Shown here: piece by piece, positions 8,942-36,365 of the stretch
How positions within the stretch are numbered: the first letter of the stretch is position 1
Layout of the letters: every line of letters begins with the position of its first letter
Source of the DNA: Thermoplasmata archaeon
Lineage (GTDB): Archaea > Thermoplasmatota > Thermoplasmata > GCA-020350865
Direction: 5' to 3'
Assembly (NCBI GenBank): GCA_020348445.1
Contig: CP070751.1
Span: forward strand, 3,681,002 to 3,745,001
Length of the DNA stretch: 64,000 nucleotides
The notes under the pieces: generated by a model
What the model was told of the DNA's origin: nothing
Database searches by the model: none
What the model saw: only the letters and a program-made list of their open reading frames with translations
Position numbers and translations under genes: made by a program

Positions 8942-9541
8942 ATGCGTAGATTTGTGGTTGTAGGTCATCGTGCCATTACCTCATCCAAATTCAATTTAAA
9001 TGATCTCTGTGGTGCCACAGGAAGACTGGATGTGCTATTACGGTGCATAAACTCCGCTTTTTTTCTTTCCCACGATATACGAAGGGATGTGGAGCTTTAT
9101 TTGATTTTACAAGGGGAACCAGAACCTCCCAAGACCATCAGGTTGGTTGGAGACGAGCTCAAATACCTCAATCCAGATGAAAGAAGTACAGCTGCGCTGA
9201 TTCGAAACGCCCTAATAAAAAAAATTGGCAAGGATGAGGAGATGTCCACGCCTGGCATCTACATTTCTAAAAACGGTCTCGAAGAGGTAATAAAAGGATT
9301 AGCAAAGAACTCAACGCTTGTATATTTAAGGGAAGATGGAGGAATCTTTGAACCAACGGAGAAGGAGCAGGACTATACATTTATCTTAAGTGACGATAAG
9401 GATATGGATGAAAAGGAGGAGGCTTTATTAAAGGTATATGAACCTGAGATAGTAAGTCTTGGATCGATAAGTTACCACTCGGACCATTGTATTGTAATCG
9501 TAAATAATCTCATGGACAGGTTTTCCAATAATAGCCGTTGA
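8942..9541 (+). CDS. trmY: tRNA (pseudouridine54-N1)-methyltransferase TrmY
   Basis: A SPOUT-class methyltransferase that turns pseudouridine 54 of the T loop into N1-methylpseudouridine, the archaeal counterpart of T54. The 199 residues include the family opening RRFVVVGHRA, the N-terminal helix region SSKFNLNDLCGATGRLDVLLR, and the C-terminal knot that binds AdoMet (TFILSDDKDMDEKEE followed by SLGSISYHSDHCIVIVNN). It sits 32 bases after srp54 on the same strand, so co-transcription is likely. This gene is one of the clearest archaeal markers in the window. Confidence 0.93.
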   Translation: MRRFVVVGHRAITSSKFNLNDLCGATGRLDVLLRCINSAFFLSHDIRRDVELYLILQGEPEPPKTIRLVGDELKYLNPDERSTAALIRNALIKKIGKDEEMSTPGIYISKNGLEEVIKGLAKNSTLVYLREDGGIFEPTEKEQDYTFILSDDKDMDEKEEALLKVYEPEIVSLGSISYHSDHCIVIVNNLMDRFSNNSR

Positions 9542-9638: not shown

Positions 9639-11378
9639 TCATGTTGTTTCAGATTTTGCCCCATCAGTAGAATAAGATCCCATTTCCATGGTTGATTCAA
9701 GGGGGGTCTTATCATTGATATGACATTTTGACCGGTACTTATTTCCAAATTCAGATCTTAAGATTCCCCCCATCTCAAGAATCTTTACGTGATAGTTGAC
9801 AACCTGGTGGCTCAAATCAAGTTTCTTTGCTATTTCAGTTTGTATGATGCCATCAAATTCCCGGACGGTTTTTACTATTCTTTTTTGGACCTCACTCAAC
9901 CTTCCTAATGTTTTTGGTACATTTGCATTCCGCGGATAGAATCGTTTGTACATACCATCACGTTTGGATACAACCACATTCTCTCGCTCTAGAACCCTTA
10001 GGTGATATGTTAATGCACCATTGTTGATATTGAGGGCATATTTAATGGCATTGTAATGTTCCCCTGGGTTGGCTTCAATGTAACCATTGATGCGGCCCCT
10101 AAGATATTGATTGAGGACTTGATCCTTTTTAATACGGGTATATAATGGAATTAGTAGAGCTGTAAATTTGTATTTACCCCCCTCGGTAAGGCTGTATAAG
10201 GCAGCTATTGTGCAAATCCCAATTATGCTGATTATCGAGAGACCCAATAAGTTCAAATTGAGACCGGATGACCTTTTTTCCTCCTCATCTTCAGAGGGAG
10301 GAGATATATCACTTGATATAATAAGTGGGTATTCATCCAATCTGTAATATCCATTACCTTGATTATCGATTGGATGCGGAATCTCTGTATCGCCGATACC
10401 ATCATCAGGAGAGCGACCATTACTACCATCATCTAATCCATCATAGTCACTCCAATAATTACCTTCGCCCGTACCGTCATCCCATACATTATTTACGCAT
10501 GTAGAGACGTCAAGACTCACTTGGTCTGAATTGTCAATGAACCAATTGTGATGTATTATGTTGTTCGATGACGATAACATAAACTTGATTCCAAAGCCAC
10601 CGAAACCTGAAGCACCATTTGATGAGATATTGTTGTATGTTATGTTATTTCCCGAAGATTGCCCCAATAAGATGCCGATAAACCTGCTTTGCGAAATATC
10701 ATTTTTCGTTATGTTGTTTGATGATGAATCTGAAAAATAGATACCGAAATCATTGTTCGTTACATTGTTGTTCCTGATATCATTGTTTGACGAACTGGCA
10801 AGATATATAGCATGATCATCATTCGATGACAGTTCGTTGCTAGTTATGCTGATAAATCTCGAATCAGAAAGATAGATTCCGTTATAATTGGAGACCACGA
10901 TGTTGTTTTCGATTCTACAGTTCTCTGCAAAGAAAAGAGCAATGCCAGCATCCACTAAATTACTACCACTGTTCTTAACAGTGAATCCCGTGATATTCAC
11001 CCAATAGGAGAAGGCCACATTCAACACATATCCATCTTCTCCGCCATCGATTATAGTGGTTTCTCTATCCTCACCAATTAAGGATATGGCTCTGTTCACA
11101 TTCACGTTTTCGTTGTAGATGCCTGAATGTACGAACACTGTATCTCCATCGCTGGCATTTTCAATTGCATATTGGATCTTTGAGTAGTTACCTGGGCCTG
11201 TACCCCCCACGTAAATCGTTGAAGCACCTGAAGCATTTGGGGCGATATCAAATGTGAGGTTCAATATGAATATCAGGTTAAAAATTAATATGAATATCAT
11301 TAATAGGTGAACATACCGGGGTTTGAATTTTGTCTTTCCCCACGACAATCCATACTTGTCTTTTTTAATTCTGGTCAT
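9639..11378 (-). CDS. Membrane-bound NosD-like beta-helix protein with cytosolic winged helices
   Basis: A probable membrane-anchored one-component regulator of 579 residues. Residues 21-43 are a signal anchor. Residues 55-350 form a NosD-type right-handed beta helix with repeated SNNNIxxN turns. A second membrane segment lies at about 373-397. The cytosolic part has two winged-helix domains of MarR/ArsR type: about 420-484 (AIKYALNINNGALTYHLRVLE) and 490-552 (EIAKKLDLSHQVVNYHVKILE). An outside beta helix could sense a surface ligand or wall polymer and pass the signal to DNA. Its start codon overlaps the stop of the upstream adhesin gene in an ATGA, so translation is probably coupled. A true NosD copper-chaperone role is unlikely given the DNA-binding tail. 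Confidence 0.88.
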   Translation of the reverse strand: MTRIKKDKYGLSWGKTKFKPRYVHLLMIFILIFNLIFILNLTFDIAPNASGASTIYVGGTGPGNYSKIQYAIENASDGDTVFVHSGIYNENVNVNRAISLIGEDRETTIIDGGEDGYVLNVAFSYWVNITGFTVKNSGSNLVDAGIALFFAENCRIENNIVVSNYNGIYLSDSRFISITSNELSSNDDHAIYLASSSNNDIRNNNVTNNDFGIYFSDSSSNNITKNDISQSRFIGILLGQSSGNNITYNNISSNGASGFGGFGIKFMLSSSNNIIHHNWFIDNSDQVSLDVSTCVNNVWDDGTGEGNYWSDYDGLDDGSNGRSPDDGIGDTEIPHPIDNQGNGYYRLDEYPLIISSDISPPSEDEEEKRSSGLNLNLLGLSIISIIGICTIAALYSLTEGGKYKFTALLIPLYTRIKKDQVLNQYLRGRINGYIEANPGEHYNAIKYALNINNGALTYHLRVLERENVVVSKRDGMYKRFYPRNANVPKTLGRLSEVQKRIVKTVREFDGIIQTEIAKKLDLSHQVVNYHVKILEMGGILRSEFGNKYRSKCHINDKTPLESTMEMGSYSTDGAKSETT

Positions 11379-14300
11379 GGTTCTTCCTCGGTCAGCAACG
11401 GTGGATCTTGAGGTGTGATTTGAGGGGCCATTGACTCTGTCGATTGTTCCCTTTGATACCCCATAGATGTATTATACTCACCTGAGGGTCCCTTAGGTGA
11501 ATACATATTTTCTTTTGGTTTTTTCTTCAGCATAAGAAGGAGCAGGAGTAAAACAACAATGACTACGATTATGATGATAATTGATAATAATAATAGAGGC
11601 GAACCTTCTGAATTTTTATCATCCGAGTCCATTTCTTTGACCTCGATTTCGAATGTGACACTTGTGAAATCCTTACCGTCCGAAAGCCTGACGGTCACTG
11701 TGTGTGTTCCGACCTGGCCTTCTTCTGGGGTCCAGGTGATGGTCCCATTACTCGAGATTTCCATGCCTTCTGGAGCTGAATCCAAACTGTATACAAGATT
11801 CGAAGCATCCTCTGGATCCAAATCTTGGCCATTAACTACCAGGGTTAAGTTCTCCCCGACCTTGATGGAATGATCAGCTATTGGTTCTAGCACCGGCGGA
11901 TTGTTAAAGGTTGCACTTTCATTTACTGTGAATGACCAAACCCCCTCTGGGCATATACCGTACTCTGTTCCATCATGGGGTATAACTGTCCAATAATAGG
12001 TTTCGCCCTTTTCAAGTGGGTCTGTGAGTTTAAATGTAGTTGTCGTTAGCTCTTCCCCGACCTTATTGGATGGATTCAAACCCTGAATATAGAGGAGATT
12101 CGTCCCTAAATATAAATCGGAGGTACAATCATCTCCATCCTCATCTGTTACAATCCAACTAAAGGTTGGATTCAAAACTTCAATTATAAAAGTATCTTTA
12201 GGGTATGTAAGTGATGTACTTGGTGGCAGGTTCTCTGATGGGCTTCTGACATCTATCTGGAAATCGTGATATATCATAATACTTTGATCCGTAGCACCGA
12301 TTTTGACCTGATAGAGACCAACACTTTCCGAAGAGAATTCAAAAAGACCTGAAGTCTCATTTAATGAGGCAGAATAAGTATTTCCACTAAGGGTGGATAT
12401 TTGTATCAATCGATATTCCATTCTATCAAATAAATCTTCATCGAAAGCGTTGATATCGAACTCATATGAATCACCCATTCTAATCAGTGTATTGGTTGGA
12501 GTGTCAATCCATTCTGGGGGATCGTTCGTATTCAATACATCCAGAGTGAAGTTACTTGAGTCCCAGCCTCCATTGCCATCCTCAACACTGATATTGACGT
12601 AATACACACCAACCTGCTCATTTATTGGGGTACCGTTTATGATACCTGTGATTGAATTGAATGATAGCCAGCTGGCATTTGTGGATACGTACCATGTTAT
12701 CATGCCTTGACCATCGTCATCGGAATCATAGTCTACAAGATATTCCGAATCCTCGTATGCATAAGTAGTATCGCCTGTGATGATTTCAAGGGGTGTGTTC
12801 AAAACATTTAACGTGAAGTTGTGTTCGTCGTAACCACTTGTTTCATTTGAGATATTTATCCTTACCCAGAACGACCCTACATCTGTATTATCTGGAATTC
12901 CATATATATCATGAGTTGTTTCATTCCATTCTAACCAGCCGGCATTGGTTTCGAAGACCCAAGTGTCGGCTGTTGCGTTTACAGACCAATAATGAGCATT
13001 GTACTGTTCATCCTCTGCTGCAGTTGGATTATCCTGTAATGGATAAAGGGTCATAGGGGGTGTATAGTTCAGCTTAGGAAAAATCAGGTAGACCTTTCCT
13101 TTATAGGAACTGTCCAATTCATGGTATGGGTGACCGATGAGAATATCATCATATCCATCGTCATTGAAGTCCCCCGCGGAACTCAACGAGTGGATAGATA
13201 TCCGTCCCCCTTCCCCTAAGAACGATGCATCTGCATCCGATAGATTCATATCCATGGACCAGCCAGAGGCATTACCCATGATTAGGTAGACTAGATCTGA
13301 TTGGTCTTCCCTCCAAGCTCCAATGAGGATATCATCAAAGCCATCTCCATCTACATCCCCAGCGCTGGAAAGTGAACATCCTGATAAATCCCCGGCAGCT
13401 TCTCCCAGAAAAGAAGCATCTGCGTTCGATAGATTAACATCCTCGCCCCATCCAGAAGTTTTACCGAATATAATATAGGTCTGGCCTGCATCCTCGCCTG
13501 CCTCGTCATTCTTGTAGGCTCCGATCAATATATCATCGAGGTTGTCTCCGTTAATGTCTCCTGCAGCAGCTACAGAATATCCAGAATAATCAAAGGCATA
13601 CTCCCCTAAAAATGTGACATTTACACTGGCAAGGTTCGTGTTCTTCTCCCAGCCTGAGGCGTTGCCGAATATTAGGTAGCTTTTACCCGCCTCGCCTCCG
13701 CTATCATCATTGCCACTAGCACCGATGAGGATGTCGTCGTACCCATCACCATTTACATCACCTAAAATCGCAATGGACTTGCCTGAACTGTCATTTGCAG
13801 ATTCCCCGATGAATGAGGCATCTGCATTTGATAAGGTGTTGTCCTTTGACCAACCAGTGTTGTTACCAAAAATAACATAGGTTTGACCTGAATATGGGCC
13901 GTTATCATCATTCTTGCGAGCGCTAATGATAACGTCATCAAAACCATCATTATTGATATCACCTGAACCTGACACGCAAAAGCCTGCTTCATCGTCAATG
14001 CCAACTCCAATGTAAGAGGCATCGACGTTGGATAGGCTTGTACCCATGGCCCAACCCGAGCTTTTGCCAAATATTAGATAGGCCTGTCCTGCATTAAATC
14101 CTCTACCATCATTACCTCTTGCACCAATAATCATATCATCGAATCCATCACCGTTTACATCGCCTGCAGCTGCAACTGAAAAACCGGCGTCAGAAAATAT
14201 ATGTTCTCCAAAAAACGAAGCGTCTGCCTCTGCAAGGTTCATATCCGGGGTCCAGCCCGAAGATTTCCCGAATATCAGGTAGACCTGGCCCTCGTCCCAT

Positions 14301-14533
14301 TCACCTCTGCTAGGAGCACCGATTATTATGTCATCATATCCATCTCCGTTCACATCACCTACACCTGCAACTGAAAAACCTGCATGATCATCTGGACTTT
14401 GGCCCACATACGAAGCTCCCATAATGGAAAGATCTGTGTTCCTTGAATATCCAATTGCCTCGGATGGAACCGAGATAAAACTTATTGAAACTACAAACAA
14501 AATTATCATCAATAATACAGTCATATTTTTCAT
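11375..14533 (-). CDS. FG-GAP propeller adhesin with cadherin-like domains
   Basis: A type I surface protein. I place the start at 14533 because GGTGAT precedes it and the signal peptide (MKNMTVLLMIILFVVSISF) begins there; an in-frame ATG at 14590 would add 19 residues and could be leaderless. Seven FG-GAP blades of about 64 residues follow, each with a calcium-type DxNGDGxDDIxIG loop, as in the integrin alpha head. Then come CADG/He_PIG-like domains, an FN3-like domain and a cadherin-like domain (EPIADHSIKVGENL). One membrane segment lies about 25-50 residues after the last domain, and a 50-residue proline-rich cytosolic tail ends the protein. It overlaps the downstream beta-helix regulator by four bases, suggesting the two act as adhesin and sensor. 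Confidence 0.9.
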   Translation of the reverse strand: MKNMTVLLMIILFVVSISFISVPSEAIGYSRNTDLSIMGASYVGQSPDDHAGFSVAGVGDVNGDGYDDIIIGAPSRGEWDEGQVYLIFGKSSGWTPDMNLAEADASFFGEHIFSDAGFSVAAAGDVNGDGFDDMIIGARGNDGRGFNAGQAYLIFGKSSGWAMGTSLSNVDASYIGVGIDDEAGFCVSGSGDINNDGFDDVIISARKNDDNGPYSGQTYVIFGNNTGWSKDNTLSNADASFIGESANDSSGKSIAILGDVNGDGYDDILIGASGNDDSGGEAGKSYLIFGNASGWEKNTNLASVNVTFLGEYAFDYSGYSVAAAGDINGDNLDDILIGAYKNDEAGEDAGQTYIIFGKTSGWGEDVNLSNADASFLGEAAGDLSGCSLSSAGDVDGDGFDDILIGAWREDQSDLVYLIMGNASGWSMDMNLSDADASFLGEGGRISIHSLSSAGDFNDDGYDDILIGHPYHELDSSYKGKVYLIFPKLNYTPPMTLYPLQDNPTAAEDEQYNAHYWSVNATADTWVFETNAGWLEWNETTHDIYGIPDNTDVGSFWVRINISNETSGYDEHNFTLNVLNTPLEIITGDTTYAYEDSEYLVDYDSDDDGQGMITWYVSTNASWLSFNSITGIINGTPINEQVGVYYVNISVEDGNGGWDSSNFTLDVLNTNDPPEWIDTPTNTLIRMGDSYEFDINAFDEDLFDRMEYRLIQISTLSGNTYSASLNETSGLFEFSSESVGLYQVKIGATDQSIMIYHDFQIDVRSPSENLPPSTSLTYPKDTFIIEVLNPTFSWIVTDEDGDDCTSDLYLGTNLLYIQGLNPSNKVGEELTTTTFKLTDPLEKGETYYWTVIPHDGTEYGICPEGVWSFTVNESATFNNPPVLEPIADHSIKVGENLTLVVNGQDLDPEDASNLVYSLDSAPEGMEISSNGTITWTPEEGQVGTHTVTVRLSDGKDFTSVTFEIEVKEMDSDDKNSEGSPLLLLSIIIIIVVIVVLLLLLLMLKKKPKENMYSPKGPSGEYNTSMGYQREQSTESMAPQITPQDPPLLTEEEP

Positions 14534-14609
14534 GGAATCACCATCAATTTTGTTAATTCCGCCTACAAATCGCTGTACGCTTTTCATCAATTAACTCTAT
14601 TGAAGTTTA

Positions 14610-14618
14610 CTGTATATA
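14610..14618 (-). promoter_or_regulatory. TATA box for the FG-GAP/NosD operon
   Basis: On the minus strand TTATATACA lies about 22-30 bases before 14588. It would give a transcript that either starts at the ATG at 14590 without a leader or carries about 55 bases before the better ATG at 14533. Confidence 0.5.
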
Positions 14619-15184
14619 AGAAGATTTGTACACTTTTTTTAAAAAATGATAAAAAAGAACAGTCATTATTTTTCCTTCTTTTAGTCCCCTTCCGATTGTT
14701 TATCTATTATATAAAATGTAATAAACATAAAAATACTTGGTATGAACGATTTTTACCAAGATATCCGTGGATAGCCCCTATTAAAACCAAACATAAAAGA
14801 TGCAATATAATGTTATTCCACTGGTCTATACATAGCATCTATGGTTAGGAAGCTTTTTGCGAACAGGTAAGCCATTTTGTCGTCTCTTTCTAGGAACAGT
14901 AGGAGAGCTCTGGTCACTGCATAAAGGACATCCATTGGATTTCAGTCTCCTTTTACCTCTATTTCTGCGTTTTGGAGGGTATTTCGCCCATTTAAGGGTT
15001 ATTACTCTTCAAATATTTTACTTTATCGCCAAATCCAGCACAAATCCAACAGTTAATAATAAATAATTTAGCATCAATATACATAAATTAGCAGTCATGT
15101 GAAGAATTAGCCCTAAATTGGAAATTGGCTGTATAAGGATGCTTTATTCTCTACATGAGGAGATGAAGAGAATGGGGGTTTATA
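14619..15184. other. Long intergenic region without a convincing gene
   Basis: Open frames here (14600-14848 and 14857-15066) have no recognisable domain and odd composition. A hairpin with CTTGGTA (14736-14742) and TACCAAG (14754-14760) arms is present. On the minus strand around 14850-14970 a lysine- and arginine-rich stretch with a single CPLC motif can be read, perhaps the trace of a lost zinc-ribbon gene, but this is weak. The last 60 bases hold the ribosome site of the regulator at 15185. Confidence 0.4.
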
Positions 15185-15919
15185 ATGGATGATCATGAAT
15201 TGATGTTCGAGTTATCACATTCTGGAAGATTAGAAGCGCTGCATATGTTGAACGAAAAACCCCAGCGACTCACCGATATCTCCAAGGCGTTGGGCCTGAC
15301 CTCTGCCGAGGTATCAAGACACCTGGGTAGGCTTTCAAAAGCCAATTTAATAATTAAAGATGGTAAGGGTAGGTACAGTACAACCTCCTTTGGCACCATC
15401 ATTCTCCATGAGCTCTCAAACCTTAAATTTCTTACAAAATATAATAAATATTTTCTCAAACATGATATATCTGTCCTACCCGATGAACTACGCTGGCTTT
15501 CTGCCTTATCCAAGTGCGAGATCGTGGAGGGCACATTGGAGATCATGTCCATGGTTGAAGACCTGACTAAAAACGCGAAAAGATATGTACGTATAATGTC
15601 AAATCAACTGATGAGGACAATGGTGGATGTCAACGTTCAAAAGGCGAAAAAAGGCGTTGTCATCAAGGTAATTTACCCAAAGGATGTGGATTTGCCTGAT
15701 TCATTTCGTCCAAAAAAGGGACTCTCGTTAGAGGTTAGGCTCATAGACGAAGTGAAATTCAGCATGAAATCCAACGAAAAAGTTGCAGGAATTGTGCTCC
15801 CAAATCTAAATGGCAAAATCGATTATGAGTTCGGCTTGATAGGTTCCGACCCATCATTTACCAGATGGGCAGAAATATTGTTCGACCATTTCTGGCAGAA
15901 GGCCGACTTTGCATTTTAA
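15185..15919 (+). CDS. FilR1-type winged-helix regulator (DUF1724-like)
   Basis: An archaeal transcription regulator of 244 residues. The N-terminal 80 residues form an ArsR-like winged helix (RLTDISKALGLTSAEVSRHLGRLSKANLI, then the wing DGKGRYSTTSFG). The C-terminal half, about 130-240, matches the methanogenesis-regulator (FilR1, DUF1724) domain pattern, including RYVRIMSNQLMRTMV and ending in WAEILFDHFWQKA. GGGGGT precedes the ATG by a few bases. Such proteins often occur as many paralogs in Methanosarcina and Thermoplasmata; the effector is not known for this one. It stands alone, convergent with the zinc-ribbon gene that follows. Confidence 0.85.
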   Translation: MDDHELMFELSHSGRLEALHMLNEKPQRLTDISKALGLTSAEVSRHLGRLSKANLIIKDGKGRYSTTSFGTIILHELSNLKFLTKYNKYFLKHDISVLPDELRWLSALSKCEIVEGTLEIMSMVEDLTKNAKRYVRIMSNQLMRTMVDVNVQKAKKGVVIKVIYPKDVDLPDSFRPKKGLSLEVRLIDEVKFSMKSNEKVAGIVLPNLNGKIDYEFGLIGSDPSFTRWAEILFDHFWQKADFAF

Positions 15920-25547: not shown

Positions 25548-28500
25548 ATGGGTCGATACGCGATGATACAAAATACAAAAAAGCCCCATAAAAATGCCAT
25601 AATCAAGATTATCTTAATGACTTTGGTACTCAGCAATGTAGTGATTCTTCCAATTTATCAACAAGTTCAGGCAAAAGAGCACTTGATAGAGGAGAACGAT
25701 GAAGAGGGAGTGGGGCAGGGGCTAGCTATTTATTCTAACTATAGACTGGCTCAGTGCTTTAATGCCACCAGTAATTATACCCTGAAAAGGGTGAGCCTTT
25801 TTGTAAATGATGAGGGTAGTATGGAGAGTACACTGGGTGTACAAATCTATGATAACGATGATAAGAGTGATGGGATTTCCGACAATGATGTACCTAATTC
25901 TTCAATTAGTCCTATGGTTGGTAACAACGGCCCTAATAATGAATTTACCTGGCTGGATTTTAAGTATTCGGTTCCCTTGACTGAGGGAGAGAGGTATTGG
26001 ATCGTGGCAGATTGTGGAGGTCCTGAGGGTGATGGTTACAGATGGAAGGATTCTGAGAATGATTCATATTCAGGTGGATATATCGCAAAGGAAGGCAATC
26101 CTGATTGGATTCTAGATACCTCCAACGACCTGATGTTCAGAGTTTTTGGGGAGTACGACAACGATGTTGGCGTGGAAGAAATAATAGCTCCTGAGCTACA
26201 GGAGTTGTACTTGGAGGCCAATGTCACAGCTATAATAATGAATTACGGTGTGAGCTCCCAGAGTGGCTTTGATGTGAGGTGCACTATATTGGCTCCAAAT
26301 GGTTCTGAGATATTGAATGACACAGAGACAATTGATACCTTGGGTTCTGACAAGATGACTGGATTAACTTGGTTCTTTACTCCTGTAGTTGAGGGCGTCT
26401 ATGCGATTACGGTAACAACACTTTTGGAAGGAGACGAATATAATATCAACAACGCAATAAGCATGAATATGAATGTTCAGAAAATGGCTGTACTTAAGCT
26501 TCACGCACCAATCGAAGTCACTGATAATTATGGCAACTGGCATGGGGATAAAGTACCTACAAATGACACCTGGCATACGAGCAGAAGGGAATTTATATGG
26601 AATGACACAGTCGGTGATGATAACGGCGATGGAGATTATACCTATCCAAATAGTACCCAATTCGAAGCCGGTTGTCTGGATATCACTGAATTTCGAGTGG
26701 CTGTGGATTATAATCGCCTCAATTTTAGAATTGAATTTGGAAGCATCGACGACGGCGTTGGAGATGGTTCAGATGGTTGGTTGGGTTTCAGCGAGCAGAT
26801 CATCGAGATTCTGATAGATACTGACAGGGACGGCACTGGCAGAGACGATACAATAAGGAACGCCAGACTTAAATTGGATAAGAGCATAGGATGGGAATAT
26901 GCACTCTGGGTAAATGGATGGAATGATGGGTACATCTTGGATGAGTCCGGGAATATGCCATTTGGTGTGCTAGCACAGGGCTCGCCTGAAACCAATGCAG
27001 TGCAAATCTCATTACCTTTATCTAACGGATTTTCTCCCGATTTCGAGGTTTGGAGATATGTGGTTCTTGTAGGGGCCCATCATAACAAAAGTCTCCCTTT
27101 TAATGTCCACGGCAGTAGATGCGGTTTTATGAGGGTAGATTCGCAAAATTCTACAGTCAGCGGAGGAGGAGGTGAGGATAAAAACGGCGCGGATTCCAAT
27201 GTCTATGATATGGTATTTGCATCTTTACAAAGCTCGCAGCTTGATGATTATGGAAGTGAAGATATATTATTAACAGAATTTACTGATACCATGGGCATGT
27301 CCGGTAGTGATATTTCAAGTTCCGAGTGGTGGGCCCAATCATTTACAGCCCCGTTCACCTGTCTGCTCTCTTCTGTGGATATCTTTGCTAAGGATGTTGC
27401 TCCAGACTCGATTATGATGGGGATAACGATATATGACAATAATGATATGGACAATTTTAATCCTGATGATGATTTACCGGGTTGGACGTGGTTATCTTCA
27501 ATAAATGGTACGGATTTTGGGACAGAATATGAATGGAAAAACGTGGAATTCTCAAATCCACCTGTAATCAGAGGTGGTGAGACATATTGGATAGTAGCAA
27601 AAAGTATGGATGAGTCTGGGAAAGGATACAAGTGGGGAAAGAATCAGAATACTCCCTGGGGCGGTGGTCATAGTGCAAGTTGGCATGGCAGTGACTGGCA
27701 ATTGGAAGATGGTGATATGCTGTTTCGGGCCTATTTTAGGAAATTGACAACAATCGATGCCCATCAACCGATATATTTTGCACCCATAGTTATCAACGAG
27801 ATTTATGTGAATGGCTCAGCTGATAAAGAATGGATCAATATCTTATATGATGGAACAGACTATGCTCCTCCATACTTGGATATGAACAATTGGACTTTAA
27901 CAGATCAGGATGGAAATATTTTTCAATTTGAGGATTTTACATTATACAACTACGATAGTGTCACAGTCCATTCCGGCTTTGGGGCAGACAGCGAAACCGA
28001 TCTTTTCTGGGGTAAATCTGTAGGGGTATGGGACGATTTCGGCGATGATGTTTTGCTCAATTCAAACTTTATCGTACCTGTAGATTTTATGAACTACACC
28101 GATGGCAACGAATTTGGCAATGATCCTCCTGTTGGAATGAATTGGGGGCCAGAAGACAACGAGAACCTTCCTATAAATCCTCACCGTCTCCAAAAGCTAT
28201 CCTTGAAAGTCGAAGGTGGAGATTACGATTTCTACAGGGATTGGGAGTTCGTTGCATTGGGTAATGTACAAGACAAAACCCTGTATTTTTTTGATGACGG
28301 AACTTTCGATTCACAAGATCCACATGATTTTATGAATACCACACCACCAATAAAAGTTGAAGTCTTAGATTTTGACGGGGATGGGAATCCTGGCTTAACA
28401 TTGAATAAATCTGCCCCACCTACAGATCCTCAAAGGTATCAGGAATTCAACCTCACACCCGTTCTGGCAATGGATTTCAAAATTGTTGATAATGTTTTAA

Positions 28501-31500
28501 TAGACCTCTGGTTTTTTGATTATGAAACAGGAGGAAAGGAAGCTCTTAAGGTAACGTTATATGATTGCAACACGACAATAAAAAAAGAGATTGCTAACGA
28601 AACAATATCATTTATCCTTGAGGATTCGGCGCAATGGTCGTTGATAAATATAATCATTTTTGATTTGGATTATACATTACGTAGTGGTCATTACCTAACT
28701 TTCCGTGTGATGATAGATTCATCATCAGAAAATGATCTAGTGCTGGCCTATAATTCCACAGAAGTACCCTCATGCATAAGAACCATCCCAACACGAACCT
28801 TTGTCAATGTGGATTGGGCTAAGACATATAACACCCTAGGACAAGAAAGTACGAGCTTTTCGATTGGTGAAGATGTAATAATCAAGGCGAATGTCTCGGA
28901 TCCTTTGGGCTCTTATGATATTTTTGGTGCGTACATTTCCATTACTCCACCAGGGGCGGGTTTGGAAGGTGCAGAAAAACCAATGACCTTGAAGATTACA
29001 GATCCAAGTAATCCATCAGCTTGGAAGTTATTCAATTATACATACAAGAATGCCAATAAAGCTGGCGAGTACACAGTGAGAATCAAGGGGATAGAATCAA
29101 ATGGTGTTATACATACCATCACAATATATTTCTATATCCTGAGAAATGAAAAACCGCAGCTTACAAACAAATCCCTCATTCCTTCCTCGGGTCTTGCATC
29201 AACGAGCTTCAATTTTACAATCAATTATACAGATTTAGAAAACCATCCCCCCGGTATTGTGACTGTGAATATCACGGGTCGTGGTACCTTCAAAATGGAT
29301 CCCCTGGACCCAGATGACGATAACTATACTGATGGAAATCTGTATTTTATAAATCTCACAGGCTTTGTGAACGGCACTTCATATTCTTATCATTTTGCAG
29401 CCAACGATTCAAAGGGCCTCTGGAACTATACCGACCCGTTCAATGGACCGTATGTATATAATACGCCGCCTGTACTTTCAGATTGGGGTCTAGATCCACC
29501 CGAAGGCTATGCCTCAACTGGATTCAATTTTACAGTTAAATACACAGATATAGACAACCAGACTGGAGTTGTCAAAGTGAATATCACTGGTTCTTCACCA
29601 CATGCAGGTAGTTATGAAATGCTTGAGGTTGACCCATATGATACAAATCGCACCGATGGTAAGTTGTATTATTTCAATTACACAGGTTTTTATAATGGCT
29701 CCTACAAACATCAATTTGCAGCATGTGATTCACAGACTTGGGTTAATACCTCGGAGTTATCGGGCCCGCATGTAATGAACACACCTCCATATTTCCGTAA
29801 AGGAAAGGTTTTACCAATAGAGGGTTATATCACGACAGAGTTCAAATACAGTGTTTTTTACTTTGATTTGGACAACCAGGCCCCAGGTAATATTACAGTG
29901 AATATCTCAGGACCATGGCATGCAGGCAGCTGGAAGATGATTGAGAAGGATACCCTAGATGAGTACTATGTAGACGGTAAGGAGTACTATTACACTTACA
30001 CTGGCCTTAAAATCGGCTCCTATTCATTTCATATTTGGGCCAACGACTCTCAAGGTTTAGGGGCCAACACCTCTGAGAGAGACGAACCCATTATACATAA
30101 TACTCGCCCAACACTTTCTGGTCATAATCTAAATCCCAAAGCCGGTGATGTTGGCGCTTACTTCAATTATACTGTAATTTATACTGACCTAGACAATCAA
30201 ACCGCAGGCAACATCACAGTAAATATTACAGGTCCCTCTTATGCAGAGAACCTCACGATGAATGCATTCGATCCTTTAGACACGAATTACACAGACGGTA
30301 AATTCTATTACCTCAATATTACATTATCCAATGAGGGAACCTATAACTACACCATCTATGCCAACGATTCAGACGGATTATGGGCGATTCCTATATTTGA
30401 TAGTGGCCCAAATGTGGGTAGCGATGCACCACCTCTGCTAACCCAGCCCATGGTGAATCCCGAGACAGGTTTTACCACAACGTGGTTCAATTTCACAGTG
30501 AACTTCACAGACTTTCAAAATGATTCAGCAGATGTTATTTTATTGAATCTATCAGGACCTTCTGGTGGTTTATTTACCATGTTCGAGGTGGATACAAGCG
30601 ACATGACCACAGAAGATGGTAAATACTTTTATCGTAATATTACCTGGTTAGAGAAAGGTATTTATTCATTCTATGTGGAAGGCAACGATACAAATGGTAA
30701 TTCTACTCAAAGCGCTGAGAGATATGTGCCCTTGGTAAAGAATACCCCTCATGAGTTGCTAGGAAGTTGCATCAACCAAAGTGAATACGGAGGCAGTTGG
30801 TTCAATTTTTCACTGGTTTATGTGGATACTGACAACGATCCGGCTGGCAGCGTGAATATCAACATTTCTGGTGTAGGTAATGTTACTATGTTAGAACTCG
30901 ATCCTTCTGATGTTATTTTTAGTGATGGTAAGGAGTACTATTACAACACAACTTTTTCAAAAGGGTCGTACTCATATCGCTTTGAGGCCAATGATACAGG
31001 TTTTAACAGGGTATGGAACTACACGACATTTGAGGATTTTACCCTCATAAACAACATACCAATTTTTTTATTACAAGATGTGACACCCCCAACAGGTTTT
31101 GGAGGAGAATATTTCAATTTCACTGTCACGGTTTTGGATTTTGACGGCGACACTCTTGAGGTATTACTTCACATCCAAGGAGATCCTGCAAGTCCTTATA
31201 CCATGCTAGAAGCAGATATGGCTGATACTGATACTACAGACGGTAAGATCTACTTCTATAACCTATCCTTTGAAAGAGGATCCTATAATTACACTTTCTC
31301 TGTTTATGATGGTGAGGAGCCTAATCAAACCAGCCCACTAACACTGATTGTGAAAAACAATCCGCCAGCGATAACCACCTCAGACATTACAAGCACCGAT
31401 GAAGACGATCTATACAGTGTGGACTACGATAACATCGACCTCGATGGAGATATAGTTACCTGGATACTAGATACGAATGCCACATGGCTCAATATAGATT

Positions 31501-34500
31501 CGGACACTGGTGTTTTAGAAGGCACCCCTACGAACCTTGAAGTTGGAAGTTACTATGTAAATGTCAGTGTGGATGATGGGTTTGGTGGTATCGACTTCCA
31601 TAATTTCACCTTGTATGTGATAAATACCCTACCACAATTTACCACGATACCAGATGAATATGCCCAGGAAGATTTCCTTCACCTGGATGATTTTAACTGT
31701 ATCGACGATGGACAAGGCAATATCGTATACTCTCTTCTTACAAATGCTTCTCGGCTTTCTCTTCATCCAGTAACAGGGCTTTTAAGTGGAACACCAGATA
31801 ACACAAATGTGGGATCTTATTGGGTGAAAGTCAGCGTAGATGATGGAAATGGGGGTATCGTTTCTGTAAACTATACACTCTGGGTAAATAACACCCCCCC
31901 GACAATTACCACAGATCCAGATCAAGTGGCAATCGAGGATTCATTACATCTCAACGATTTCACTTGCGATGATGATGGGGAGGGTGATATCACTTATTCA
32001 TTGGAGACAAACGCCACATGGCTCAACTTGAATCCCTCAACTGGAATTCTGAGCGGGATACCAAATAATACTCATGTGGGATCATACTGGGTCAATGTTT
32101 CGGTGGATGATGGAAACGGTGGAAAGGATTTCGTGAACTATTCCCTTTCTGTTCTGAACGTACAACCTATTATTACAATAACACCAGATGTTACAGCCCA
32201 GGAGGATTTTTTACATTCTGATAATTTTGATTGTACCGATGAGGGTCAGGGAAATATCATATATTCCCTCACCACCGATGCGACATGGCTTATGATAAAT
32301 CCTTCGACAGGCCTTTTAAATGGAACACCCAATAACACCCATGTTGGCTTTTATTTTGTCAATGTCACTGTTAATGACGGAAACGGAGGAATTGACAATA
32401 TCAATTACACCATCACAGTTATAAACACTCTGCCAACCATAACTACCATTCCCATTCCTGTTGTGACTCAAGATATCCCCTATCATGATGATATTGATTG
32501 CAATGATGATGGCCAGGGTACAATTATATATTCAATTGCCACAAATGCCACATGGTTCTTTTTCAATTCCACTACAGGCGAATTAAATGGCACGCCAAAC
32601 AATACCCATCTTGGATCGTATTGGGTGAATGTGAGTGTGACAGACGGCAATGGAGGCATGGATTTTATAAATTATTCATTGACAGTGGATGATGTAAACG
32701 ATCCTCCGATTATTACTACAACAAATATCGAATTTGTAGATGAGGATTCCCTATATTCAGTTGATTACGAGTACATCGATATTGACGATCCAGTTATGAC
32801 ATGGTCCTTGTACACAAATTCCTCTTGGCTAGATATCGACACAAGTACAGGTGTACTGTCAGGAATCCCACAGAACGATGATGTGGGCTCGTGTTGGGTG
32901 AATGTAACTGTAAATGACGGACGAGGAGGAACCGACTACACCAACTTCACAATAACAGTGAGCAACACCCCTCCGTCCATAATAAATACCCCTATAGAAT
33001 TCACAGATGAAGATGACTTTCATTTGGATGATTTTAATTGTGACGACGATTTTCAAGGTAATATAGTCTATTCGTTTATAACAAATGCCACCTGGTTAAA
33101 TATCGATTCCTTGACTGGAATAATAAGTGGGACTTCAAACAACACCCTTGTTGGATGGTATTGGGTAAATGTATCTGTTGAAGATGGAAATGGTGGAAGA
33201 GATTCTAGGAATTATACTTTAACAGTGTACAATACACTTCCTTTGATAACCACTACACCAGAAGAGGAAGCGTTCGAGGATACTCTACACGCCGATTATT
33301 TCATGTGCATTGATGACGACCAGGGCAATATCGTTTATTCCATGAAAACAAATGCAACATGGCTTGGTTTTGTTGCCGATAAGGGCATATTAAGTGGAAC
33401 TCCATATAACACTGAAGTTGGATGGTATTGGGTCAATGTAACAGTTAACGATGGAAACGGGGGTGTGGATTCCCTTAATTATACATTGACAGTACATAAT
33501 GTGCATCCTAACATAACTACGATACCCGATGCCACTGCTTCGGAAGATATACTCCACTTGGATAACTTCGATTGCGACGACGATGGCCAGGGCAACATCA
33601 TATATTCACTTGCAAGCAATGCAACTTGGCTCAATATAGATCCCATATCTGGTGTTGTGAACGTGGTCCCAATTAATCTTTATGTGGGTGAGTACTTTGT
33701 CAATGTCTCGGTTTCTGATGGGAACGGTGGAATCGACTTTGTCAATTATTCTCTTACTGTTTTCAATACTCAACCGCATATTACCAACACACCTGATGAT
33801 TTCGCAATTGAGGACATGCTTCATATAGATGATTTTAATTGTGATGATGATGGTCAAGGAAACATCACATATTATCTTGTCACGAATGCAACGTGGCTTA
33901 ATATTGATCCTGTTGAAGGCATTTTAAGCGGCACTCCCGACAATTCTCATGTAGGTTGGTTTTGGATCAATGTCAGTGTTAATGACGGTAATGGGGGTAT
34001 TGATTACAGGAACTACACATTGAACGTGTCAGACGTCAATGATCCACCTGTTATCACCACAATAGATCTTGAGTTTGCCCTGGAGGATTCCCTTTACTAT
34101 GTGGACTATGAATACATAGATGTAGACGACACAGCAGTTTCATGGTACCGTGACTCAAATGCATCATGGCTTACCATAAACTCCCAAACTGGTGAGCTTT
34201 CCGGTATTCCTGAAAACCATGAGGTGGGATGGTGCTGGGTCAATGTGACAGTCGATGATGGCAGGGGAGGCATAGCATTCTCGAACTTCACGATCACTGT
34301 AAACAATACGCCCCCTGCGATTACCAATACACCAATTGAACTTGTTGATGAAGACTTGACGTTTTTGGATGATTTTAACAGCAATGATGACGATCAGGGC
34401 AACATAATATATTCCATGGATACAAATGCGACATGGTTTGATATTGACAACATATCGGGTGTTTTAAGTGGACTTCCCAACAATAATCATGTGGGATGGT

Positions 34501-36365
34501 ACTGGATTAATGTTACAGTAAGTGACGGAAATGGCGGAATAGATTGGAGAAATTATACAATTACTGTGAATAACACCGTTCCACTGATAACAACGTTACC
34601 AACACCGATTTCCTATGAGGATTATCAGTATTTGGTGGACTTTAATTGCAATGACGACGGTCAGGGTGTGATTATCTATTATCTCAATACAAATGGCACT
34701 TGGCTTTCTATAGACGACATAACAGGCACCGTGATCGGAACACCCGTAAATAATGATGTGGGCTCCTATTGGATCAACGTCACTGTCATGGATGGCAACA
34801 GTGGGATGCATTCTGTCAACTACACTCTGACTGTGAACAACACCAACGATGCCCCAATCATAACCACTGGCAATTTGGAATTTGTTGATGAGGATTCCCT
34901 GTACCTGGTTGATTATGATTATTTTGATATCGACGGTGACATGGTTTCATGGAGTAGGAGCACCAACGCATCCTGGCTTTCGATCAATGAAAGTAATGGA
35001 GTATTGTCAGGTAGTCCGAGAAATGCGGATGTGGGATGGTACTGGGTAAACATTGTTGTAGATGACGGTAATGGTGGTTACAATAGTACATATTTCATAA
35101 TTCATGTCAACAATACAAATGATAAGCCCTCTATTCCTGTATTGTCTTACCCTCAGGACGATTCAGTGGTTAATACAACATATCCTGACTTTATCTGGGA
35201 TGCATCCATTGATCCTGATCGCGGAGATTATATTGTAGATTACACGTTGGAGTATTCCACGAGTTCTGCTTTTACCGAGAACATAACAGTTGTCACTGCT
35301 ATAGTCGATACATCTTATGTCCCAGAGATAGAATTAATGGATAAAACATGGTACTACTGGCGTGTGGAAGCCTTTGATTCCTTGGGTGTGGGAAGTGGTT
35401 ATCAAACACCTTATTTTGCATTTTTCGTTGATATAGGATATAAGGAGCCAAGATACAAAGGAACATTGAAAAGCGCTCAAGTGAAATTTGGGGGTACTTG
35501 GAGTGTGGATTTGGATGATCATTTTATACTCGGCTCCATAACCGAGGGTCTTTCGTTCACATCAAATTACGGAGAGATCCAAATCGATCCGAAAACCCAT
35601 GTGGCAACTTGGAAACCTAAAACCAAGGATGATGTTCTTACTGATGTTGTCTTTACCATGTCAGACGGTAAAGTAGATATCAGCTCCAATCCTATAGATA
35701 TCTCAGTGGAACAGGAGAAGACCTCTTTATCCTTCCTGGAAAGAATTTACTGGCCCTATCCCTTGATTCCCATGATATTCTTTATTCTTTTGGGATGTGC
35801 ATTTGCAGTCAAGAGATATAAAGAAAGGCCTGTTGTGGAGGAAGTTTTTTTCATATCTGAAAACGGCAGACTCATTGCCCATGCATCTGTTAAGGTGGAC
35901 GAGGAGATAGACGAGGACATCTTAAGCAGTATGTTAACAGGGGTCAAGGACTTTGTTAGCGATGCATTCATAAGAGACGAGAGTATGCGGGAGGAAAAAG
36001 GCCTTCAAAAACTTGAATTTGGTGAGGAGACCATATATCTTGAAAGGGGAGAACATTTCTTTATTGCCCTCATATTCACTGGCAGGGGCATCCCACCTAA
36101 ACTGAAAGCCGTGAAGGAGGAGATTGAAAAAAGGTTTGGGGATGTACTTGAGGATTGGGACGGCGATATGAGGGCCTTCGAAGGTGCGCATGAGATCATT
36201 TCCTGGCTGTTACCTCTGGAGAAAATGACTGAAGAGCAGAAAAAGAAGCTCAAGGAAGGAAAGGGGAAGGACAAGGTATTGGAAAAATGGGAGAACATTG
36301 ATGAAGAGTTTGCTGAGGTTGACATTTCCATGGAGGAATTAAGAAAAGAGATGGGTTGGAAGTAG
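25548..36365 (+). CDS. Giant cadherin-like surface protein with cytosolic longin/roadblock-like tail
   Basis: A type I membrane protein of 3605 residues. After a signal peptide (to about 41) come a beta-sandwich (45-200) repeated at about 565-735, a CARDB-like domain (205-315), a glucodextranase C-terminal-like region (322-564) and a lamin-tail-like domain (743-845). Seven Ig-like repeats of about 105 residues fill 1200-1940, each with FNFTVxYTDxDN. Fourteen CADG/He_PIG repeats of about 87 residues fill 1937-3187, with motifs ATWLNIDxxTGxLSGTP and VNVSVxDGNGG. An FN3-like domain and one membrane segment (3398-3421) follow. The tail (3422-3605) predicts beta-beta-alpha-beta-beta-beta-alpha at 3431-3555, the longin/roadblock order. 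N-glycosylation sequons are abundant. It may be an adhesin that signals to the neighbouring GTPases. Confidence 0.9.
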   Translation: MGRYAMIQNTKKPHKNAIIKIILMTLVLSNVVILPIYQQVQAKEHLIEENDEEGVGQGLAIYSNYRLAQCFNATSNYTLKRVSLFVNDEGSMESTLGVQIYDNDDKSDGISDNDVPNSSISPMVGNNGPNNEFTWLDFKYSVPLTEGERYWIVADCGGPEGDGYRWKDSENDSYSGGYIAKEGNPDWILDTSNDLMFRVFGEYDNDVGVEEIIAPELQELYLEANVTAIIMNYGVSSQSGFDVRCTILAPNGSEILNDTETIDTLGSDKMTGLTWFFTPVVEGVYAITVTTLLEGDEYNINNAISMNMNVQKMAVLKLHAPIEVTDNYGNWHGDKVPTNDTWHTSRREFIWNDTVGDDNGDGDYTYPNSTQFEAGCLDITEFRVAVDYNRLNFRIEFGSIDDGVGDGSDGWLGFSEQIIEILIDTDRDGTGRDDTIRNARLKLDKSIGWEYALWVNGWNDGYILDESGNMPFGVLAQGSPETNAVQISLPLSNGFSPDFEVWRYVVLVGAHHNKSLPFNVHGSRCGFMRVDSQNSTVSGGGGEDKNGADSNVYDMVFASLQSSQLDDYGSEDILLTEFTDTMGMSGSDISSSEWWAQSFTAPFTCLLSSVDIFAKDVAPDSIMMGITIYDNNDMDNFNPDDDLPGWTWLSSINGTDFGTEYEWKNVEFSNPPVIRGGETYWIVAKSMDESGKGYKWGKNQNTPWGGGHSASWHGSDWQLEDGDMLFRAYFRKLTTIDAHQPIYFAPIVINEIYVNGSADKEWINILYDGTDYAPPYLDMNNWTLTDQDGNIFQFEDFTLYNYDSVTVHSGFGADSETDLFWGKSVGVWDDFGDDVLLNSNFIVPVDFMNYTDGNEFGNDPPVGMNWGPEDNENLPINPHRLQKLSLKVEGGDYDFYRDWEFVALGNVQDKTLYFFDDGTFDSQDPHDFMNTTPPIKVEVLDFDGDGNPGLTLNKSAPPTDPQRYQEFNLTPVLAMDFKIVDNVLIDLWFFDYETGGKEALKVTLYDCNTTIKKEIANETISFILEDSAQWSLINIIIFDLDYTLRSGHYLTFRVMIDSSSENDLVLAYNSTEVPSCIRTIPTRTFVNVDWAKTYNTLGQESTSFSIGEDVIIKANVSDPLGSYDIFGAYISITPPGAGLEGAEKPMTLKITDPSNPSAWKLFNYTYKNANKAGEYTVRIKGIESNGVIHTITIYFYILRNEKPQLTNKSLIPSSGLASTSFNFTINYTDLENHPPGIVTVNITGRGTFKMDPLDPDDDNYTDGNLYFINLTGFVNGTSYSYHFAANDSKGLWNYTDPFNGPYVYNTPPVLSDWGLDPPEGYASTGFNFTVKYTDIDNQTGVVKVNITGSSPHAGSYEMLEVDPYDTNRTDGKLYYFNYTGFYNGSYKHQFAACDSQTWVNTSELSGPHVMNTPPYFRKGKVLPIEGYITTEFKYSVFYFDLDNQAPGNITVNISGPWHAGSWKMIEKDTLDEYYVDGKEYYYTYTGLKIGSYSFHIWANDSQGLGANTSERDEPIIHNTRPTLSGHNLNPKAGDVGAYFNYTVIYTDLDNQTAGNITVNITGPSYAENLTMNAFDPLDTNYTDGKFYYLNITLSNEGTYNYTIYANDSDGLWAIPIFDSGPNVGSDAPPLLTQPMVNPETGFTTTWFNFTVNFTDFQNDSADVILLNLSGPSGGLFTMFEVDTSDMTTEDGKYFYRNITWLEKGIYSFYVEGNDTNGNSTQSAERYVPLVKNTPHELLGSCINQSEYGGSWFNFSLVYVDTDNDPAGSVNINISGVGNVTMLELDPSDVIFSDGKEYYYNTTFSKGSYSYRFEANDTGFNRVWNYTTFEDFTLINNIPIFLLQDVTPPTGFGGEYFNFTVTVLDFDGDTLEVLLHIQGDPASPYTMLEADMADTDTTDGKIYFYNLSFERGSYNYTFSVYDGEEPNQTSPLTLIVKNNPPAITTSDITSTDEDDLYSVDYDNIDLDGDIVTWILDTNATWLNIDSDTGVLEGTPTNLEVGSYYVNVSVDDGFGGIDFHNFTLYVINTLPQFTTIPDEYAQEDFLHLDDFNCIDDGQGNIVYSLLTNASRLSLHPVTGLLSGTPDNTNVGSYWVKVSVDDGNGGIVSVNYTLWVNNTPPTITTDPDQVAIEDSLHLNDFTCDDDGEGDITYSLETNATWLNLNPSTGILSGIPNNTHVGSYWVNVSVDDGNGGKDFVNYSLSVLNVQPIITITPDVTAQEDFLHSDNFDCTDEGQGNIIYSLTTDATWLMINPSTGLLNGTPNNTHVGFYFVNVTVNDGNGGIDNINYTITVINTLPTITTIPIPVVTQDIPYHDDIDCNDDGQGTIIYSIATNATWFFFNSTTGELNGTPNNTHLGSYWVNVSVTDGNGGMDFINYSLTVDDVNDPPIITTTNIEFVDEDSLYSVDYEYIDIDDPVMTWSLYTNSSWLDIDTSTGVLSGIPQNDDVGSCWVNVTVNDGRGGTDYTNFTITVSNTPPSIINTPIEFTDEDDFHLDDFNCDDDFQGNIVYSFITNATWLNIDSLTGIISGTSNNTLVGWYWVNVSVEDGNGGRDSRNYTLTVYNTLPLITTTPEEEAFEDTLHADYFMCIDDDQGNIVYSMKTNATWLGFVADKGILSGTPYNTEVGWYWVNVTVNDGNGGVDSLNYTLTVHNVHPNITTIPDATASEDILHLDNFDCDDDGQGNIIYSLASNATWLNIDPISGVVNVVPINLYVGEYFVNVSVSDGNGGIDFVNYSLTVFNTQPHITNTPDDFAIEDMLHIDDFNCDDDGQGNITYYLVTNATWLNIDPVEGILSGTPDNSHVGWFWINVSVNDGNGGIDYRNYTLNVSDVNDPPVITTIDLEFALEDSLYYVDYEYIDVDDTAVSWYRDSNASWLTINSQTGELSGIPENHEVGWCWVNVTVDDGRGGIAFSNFTITVNNTPPAITNTPIELVDEDLTFLDDFNSNDDDQGNIIYSMDTNATWFDIDNISGVLSGLPNNNHVGWYWINVTVSDGNGGIDWRNYTITVNNTVPLITTLPTPISYEDYQYLVDFNCNDDGQGVIIYYLNTNGTWLSIDDITGTVIGTPVNNDVGSYWINVTVMDGNSGMHSVNYTLTVNNTNDAPIITTGNLEFVDEDSLYLVDYDYFDIDGDMVSWSRSTNASWLSINESNGVLSGSPRNADVGWYWVNIVVDDGNGGYNSTYFIIHVNNTNDKPSIPVLSYPQDDSVVNTTYPDFIWDASIDPDRGDYIVDYTLEYSTSSAFTENITVVTAIVDTSYVPEIELMDKTWYYWRVEAFDSLGVGSGYQTPYFAFFVDIGYKEPRYKGTLKSAQVKFGGTWSVDLDDHFILGSITEGLSFTSNYGEIQIDPKTHVATWKPKTKDDVLTDVVFTMSDGKVDISSNPIDISVEQEKTSLSFLERIYWPYPLIPMIFFILLGCAFAVKRYKERPVVEEVFFISENGRLIAHASVKVDEEIDEDILSSMLTGVKDFVSDAFIRDESMREEKGLQKLEFGEETIYLERGEHFFIALIFTGRGIPPKLKAVKEEIEKRFGDVLEDWDGDMRAFEGAHEIISWLLPLEKMTEEQKKKLKEGKGKDKVLEKWENIDEEFAEVDISMEELRKEMGWK

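Follow-up and report, generated by a model that had tools for sequence, protein, structure and literature searches.

The locus lies in a 64,000-nucleotide stretch of contig CP070751.1 from a Thermoplasmata archaeon (hereafter the window) and consists of two overlapping genes on the minus strand, gene A (11375..14533, 1052 aa) and gene B (9639..11378, 579 aa). ORFs were taken as the longest ORFs and transmembrane (TM) helices were called by Kyte–Doolittle hydropathy, both of which are simple procedures. Gene A starts at the ATG at 14533, with in-frame alternatives at ATG 14587 and TTG 14590, and encodes a secreted, C-terminally TM-anchored surface protein. Its signal peptide is followed by seven FG-GAP and three He_PIG Ig-like stretches, and the protein ends in a TM helix identified by hydropathy (aa ~980–998, 11540..11596, minus strand) and a cytosolic tail of ~45 aa. 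The FG-GAP stretches (Pfam, E 1.8e-47, 159 bits, above cut-off) form an integrin-alpha-like propeller region (aa ~40–470, 13124..14416, minus strand), and He_PIG matched with an E-value of 2.7e-25, its top-scoring domain spanning aa 879–965 (11639..11899, minus strand). A preliminary description of the locus had called A FG-GAP/cadherin-like. The FG-GAP repeats bear this out, but Cadherin_5 scored 24.9 bits against a Pfam cut-off of 26.5 bits, so "cadherin-like" is a loose term here and the cadherin label was dropped. Judged by its domain types, A is a putative adhesin. Its FG-GAP region is homologous to 4237-aa and 1640-aa FG-GAP proteins of the same genome, and a 3605-aa ORF elsewhere in the window (25548–36365) has repeats resembling the Ig-like part of A.

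Gene B begins with a hydrophobic segment that is either a signal peptide or an anchor (aa 25–43, 11250..11306), followed by a right-handed beta-helix ectodomain of the NosD/Beta_helix type (aa 54–300, 10479..11219; Pfam and AlphaFold), a TM helix (aa 377–395, 10194..10250; hydropathy and AlphaFold), a conserved, hydrophobic juxtamembrane helix with the family consensus TExGK...PLYTRLKK (aa 399–413, 10140..10184), and two winged helices found by both Pfam and AlphaFold (aa 418–482, 9933..10127, PF24266 HTH_HVO_0163_N; aa 496–554, 9717..9893, HTH_24/MarR-like), all on the minus strand. The three Pfam matches were above cut-off (NosD 5.2e-35, HTH_HVO_0163_N 9.1e-16, HTH_24 1.4e-9), and with 58.1 bits against a gathering cut-off of 31 bits winged helix 1 is a member of PF24266. 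The curated NCBIfam model for the NosD maturation protein (TIGR04247) reached only 121 bits against a cut-off of 300, and the identification as a NosD copper protein was dropped.

Full-length AlphaFold prediction returned the beta-helix at ~54–300, a disordered stalk at 304–375, the TM helix and the two winged helices. When the TM–winged helix part was predicted, pLDDT was 90.8, with one helix at 6–27 (the TM) and another at 30–45, and both winged helices were complete, each in the order helix-helix-helix-strand-strand. Foldseek superposed the single winged helices on MexR and ArsR at 1.2–1.4 Å, although among solved structures none matched the tandem arrangement well. The best solved sequence relative is PDB chain 5duk, a "putative DNA binding protein" matching winged helix 1 at 4e-14. 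Because an alignment of 37 relatives shows conserved recognition helices and wings, and because the single domains superpose so closely on MexR and ArsR, the winged helices are not degenerate. Pfam and AlphaFold thus agree with the predicted architecture given in the preliminary description (an outside beta-helix, a membrane helix and two winged helices), and the structure prediction it had proposed as a check found both winged helices intact. Were the hydrophobic juxtamembrane helix also membrane-spanning, the winged helices would end up on the outside. The inner side is favoured by the charge distribution (−0.8 on the ectodomain side and +2.4 after the helix, i.e., positive-inside) and by the paralogs at loci L095, L099 and L101, which have a single TM with the winged helix directly after it.

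The stop codon of A and the start codon of B overlap as ATGA at 11375..11378 on the minus strand, as previously noted, and this overlap suggests that the two genes may be translationally coupled. B had also been described as a sensor dedicated to A. An orthologous A–B pair was sought in relatives, including the syntenic loci of a same-genus sister genome (G001) and a same-order genome (G002), and none was found. In G001 the flanking genes are present and A and B are missing, while in G002 the genes on either side of A and B here, encoding the methyltransferase and the FilR1-like regulator, adjoin directly. "Dedicated" is therefore too strong: the exact pair is not conserved, but the type of pair, a surface gene with a B-like gene, recurs. 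The A–B pair is lineage-specific and private to this genome among the genomes examined. The conserved elements are the B-type module, the coupling of this module to surface genes of many kinds, and a common promoter box. The FilR1-like/ArsR-type regulator (15185–15919) is divergent from A, and because it is kept beside the RNA methyltransferase (8942–9541 in the window) in G002, it is older at this locus than A and B.

A search of the 5.16-Mb single-contig genome with the module (TM helix plus tandem winged helix) found 24 places; family size depends on the threshold, with 24 places in the single-sequence search and 24 above the PF24266 cut-off. In 20 ORFs a hydrophobic segment at the N-terminus is followed in turn by the ectodomain, the TM and the two winged helices, although simple hydropathy gives only a weak second TM in a few of them and the N-terminus of L093 is masked. 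Ectodomains range from ~150 to ~2,430 aa and are different in each copy, including PKD arrays, WD40 and PQQ-type propellers, NosD helices, CARDB, Big_7 and CarboxypepD_reg. A few copies in this genome are soluble, and a split version was observed (L100:4238-6700) in which an exported Kelch-repeat protein is followed 51 bp on by a soluble tandem winged-helix protein. A tandem cluster spanning L091 and L092 (G000:C1:2020500-2060300) holds at least four module genes together with module-less paralogs, their N-termini near-identical, and is the clearest sign of local duplication with ectodomain divergence.

An alignment of 37 modules displayed conservation of the recognition helix and wing of winged helix 1 (NGxLxYHL...DGxYKRFYP) and of the juxtamembrane helix. 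Identity in the recognition helix of winged helix 2 was 36% among paralogs and 83% between orthologs. However, ortholog-specific constraint on the recognition helices showed no excess over the rest of the module, and this identity is therefore not used as evidence of specificity. Across the class, 143 of 200 genomes had a module match at E ≤ 1e-8, several of them with at least ten. A scan of 84,980 species with a profile built from a 13-row module alignment gave 80 best loci, all from metagenome-assembled genomes (MAGs) of Thermoplasmatota/"Euryarchaeota" and nearly all with the same domain order. MAGs are incomplete and contain gaps, for example a run of 100 Ns in L085.

Module genes are followed by surface genes far more often than are cytosolic genes. 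A co-directional surface gene lies within 300 bp downstream of 29% of module genes in this genome and 33% in the 80 loci; the corresponding figures for cytosolic genes are 1.5% and 5.5% (P 8e-5 and 4e-10), and for surface genes 12%. Three module/surface pairs are shared with G001 (L084/L120, L085/L124 and L088/L126). In the first, the module precedes the surface protein, again with an ATGA overlap, and in the second the surface protein comes first and the module abuts it. One orthologous module group precedes a family-5 solute-binding protein and a multi-TM membrane protein.

In many genomes a short-ectodomain module is followed by an exported protein of ~960 aa (L130, L131, L192, L193, L197, L199, L202, L204, L211, L224 and L225); at L131 the exported protein belongs to the family-5 solute-binding proteins, has Ig-like domains and is followed by a multi-TM protein. 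Orthologous modules of ~450 aa are paired with an exported protein of ~530 aa at L207:7194-10305, L217, L220 and L223, the L207 partner having a transglutaminase-like core, and several modules related to this group have the promoter variant TTGTTTCAAAACATATAAATAG in common. Compared with L084:5975-9148 here, the L084-type gene looks split in G001 (L270:6746-8134 and L120:6516-8333). Its 5′ part retains a signal peptide and promoter box and still lies beside a homologue of the same 642-aa neighbour, while the TM–winged helix part, for which neither signal peptide nor box is clear, lies with its partner ~1.3 Mb off. This is either a rearrangement or a misassembly.

Comparison of module promoters revealed a candidate operator, GTGTAC(C/A)AATCT-TTTATTTATA, present in module and partner genes alike; it sits just upstream of the TATA box and overlaps the TATA region. 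A 24-bp matrix (consensus gTGTaCCAAAcTTTATTTATA) was built from 18 module promoters of this genome, with no surface genes in the training set. The candidate operator and TATA box of the A–B operon, GTGTACAAATCTTCTTATATACAG (14610..14633, minus strand), scored 17.8 and lies ~20 bp before the alternative starts at 14587 and 14590 and ~80 bp before the ATG at 14533. Other surface genes outside the training set also scored highly, namely the partners at L088 (22.0) and L095 (15.7) and a secreted neighbour at L098 (14.2). B itself has no box (score −1.4), as expected if it is read from the promoter of A. A palindrome noticed by eye just before the start of A (TCAAT-N7-ATTGA) was set aside as a candidate operator; it is AT-rich and not common to the other promoters.

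In leave-one-out tests the matrix distinguished module promoters from those of cytosolic genes (P 2.6e-4). Median scores in held-out genomes were 6.9 for module genes (n = 50), 6.6 for adjacent surface genes (n = 39), 2.0 for other surface genes (n = 26) and −1.7 for cytosolic genes (n = 208), with P 5e-12 for modules and 2e-8 for partner surface genes. Removal of redundancy left P-values of 1e-8 and 3e-6, which must be interpreted with the caution that orthologous promoters and genes are still not fully independent. Scored without the TATA element, the box remained enriched (P 5e-6 for modules, 0.0016 for partners). Scores above 3 were then seen for 29% of module promoters and 33% of partner promoters, compared with 4% for other surface genes and 6% for cytosolic genes, and none of 200 column permutations reached the observed enrichment. 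A convincing box is absent from some 30–60% of module genes.

A strict consensus search (at most three mismatches) of the whole genome detected seven sites, against three for the reversed-pattern control. All seven are upstream of module or surface genes: the modules at L087, L090 and L084, the L088 partner, gene A (site at 14613–14633), the 4237-aa FG-GAP protein, and, at a distance of 230 bp, a 1378-aa surface protein. A looser pattern was too noisy, with 27 matches versus 18 in the control, and strict sites proved rare in all the genomes without modules, so that counting them there cannot discriminate. In G001 an exact site with no mismatch precedes the surface gene of the surface-then-module operon at L124, which is the nearest counterpart to A–B; of the other two sites there, one lies before the split L084 homologue and one has no obvious target. 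The A-related 4237-aa FG-GAP surface protein (L235:5684-18397) has one of the best box scores, 23.0, and no adjacent module, making it a candidate trans target.

The architecture, the intact winged helices, the paralog family, the enrichment of surface neighbours and a box specific to these promoters are computed observations, and they are probably best explained as a whole if B acts as a one-component transcription regulator that is tethered to the membrane and controls its own surface-protein operon. Binding of the box by module proteins, the sign of the regulation, its signal and any contact between A and B are what we infer from them. We hypothesize that B is co-translated with A, that its beta-helix ectodomain is exported while the TM crosses the membrane, and that inside the cell the tandem winged helix at the C-terminus contacts DNA. 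The A–B operon would most likely be controlled through the GTGTAC(C/A)AAT box overlapping the TATA region upstream of A, where B or a paralog may bind and then help or block TBP/TFB; since the box abuts the TATA, module proteins would act on TBP/TFB recruitment. A change outside the cell, whether in a ligand, a glycan, cell contact, or the occupancy or assembly of A in the coat, could serve as the signal. Surface contact, which the preliminary description had put forward, is one candidate among these. The state of the ectodomain would be passed through the TM and juxtamembrane helix to alter DNA binding, and the cell would adjust its choice of surface proteins made. B belongs to the set of ~20 paralogs in which the TM–winged helix output stays constant and the ectodomain is swapped.

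An unlikely alternative is that the box is read by some other surface-gene regulator, either soluble or global, with the membrane winged-helix proteins being members of its regulon that bind elsewhere. The box does precede surface genes without an adjacent module, such as that for the 4237-aa FG-GAP protein, and recognition helix 2 varies among paralogs that have the box in common. However, the box tracks module genes and their neighbours rather than other surface or cytosolic genes, in the proportions given above, and the recognition and wing residues of winged helix 1 are what the paralogs have most in common, which is what a common box would need. We consider it doubtful, to a greater degree, that A and B came to adjoin merely by recent insertion, given how many surface genes the genome has, so that B regulates something unrelated to A: the pair is missing from both syntenic loci and B has more than 200 matches in the genome, mostly NosD-like, but the ATGA overlap, the high-scoring box before A with none before B, and the recurrence of the surface-and-module arrangement with conserved pairs argue against this. 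That the winged helices merely tether DNA or the chromosome, or form a protein–protein module, anchoring surface machinery near its genes without transcription control, is improbable, since structural roles are possible for winged helices (Foldseek also lists those of ScpB, ESCRT-II and Pol III) but the single domains superpose closely on MarR/ArsR-type repressors and the promoter-linked box suggests regulation.

Beyond regulation of its own operon by B, we propose tentatively, as something that may well prove too broad, a class-wide surface-to-DNA network in Thermoplasmatota. Dozens of membrane-anchored tandem winged-helix proteins with shuffled giant ectodomains would be co-translated with individual coat proteins and would all read one box (GTGTACCAAT plus TATA), with the state of surface proteins feeding back on coat transcription. 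Sensing and signal transfer across the archaeal membrane are poorly known. If correct, our reading would add an expanded one-component sensor family with constant output, an outside swapped among propeller, beta-helix and Ig-like forms, and a predicted DNA target with its genes, and would offer a function for huge surface-like proteins otherwise annotated by their ectodomain alone.

Single elements of this system have known counterparts. NosD and periplasmic beta-helix proteins (PF05048) share the beta-helix ectodomain with B, which falls below the NCBIfam NosD cut-off. The HVO_0163 N-terminal HTH family (PF24266) includes winged helix 1 but covers that one domain only, and the literature searched held nothing on the function of HVO_0163 or COG3398. 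In a way proposed here for B, ArnR and ArnR1 of Sulfolobus acidocaldarius are archaeal membrane-bound one-component regulators that control surface structures by way of promoter boxes (PMC6396743). However, ArnR has a single N-terminal HTH, a HAMP-like and a sensor domain and two C-terminal TMs, and its boxes are TCGAC-N5-GTCGA inverted repeats (PMC6396743); B does not have this family architecture, and ArnR has neither a large ectodomain nor a coupled surface gene, and its box differs.

The co-component systems VtrA/VtrC and ToxR/ToxS of enteric bacteria (Kinch et al. 2022, PMC9214523) pair a tethered factor with an exported partner encoded beside or overlapping it, often in overlapping genes and with fast-evolving outside parts. 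B and A have the same layout, with their ATGA overlap and paralogous pairs. In contrast to the N-terminal ToxR/CadC-like HTH of the co-component systems, B carries a C-terminal ArsR/MarR-like tandem winged helix (PF24266 and HTH_24). The co-component partner is small, lipocalin-like and part of an obligate heterodimer, whereas A is a large FG-GAP/He_PIG protein and any complex with B is hypothetical; the surface partners here are large FG-GAP/PKD proteins, and the setting is archaeal.

B fits the definition of a transmembrane transcription regulator (TTR; Demey et al. 2023, PMC10269533), since it combines a predicted DNA-binding domain and a TM in one protein. TTRs act from the membrane as one-component systems and have undergone lineage-specific expansion in some groups (PMC10269533). 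It is the promoter box that suggests B may regulate transcription from the membrane as they do. In the TTR survey an archaeal genome has on average 4 (±2) TTRs, and neither Thermoplasma nor PKD comes up in the main text (PMC10269533); here we find ~20 paralogs, very large swapped ectodomains, a C-terminal tandem winged helix and a common promoter box. The literature searched, most subscription journals lying outside it, contains no description of an expanded, ectodomain-swapping archaeal set or of its box. Within the transmembrane transcription regulators, the family is set apart by its expansion, its ectodomain shuffling and its common box, and the candidate operator box is the new element.
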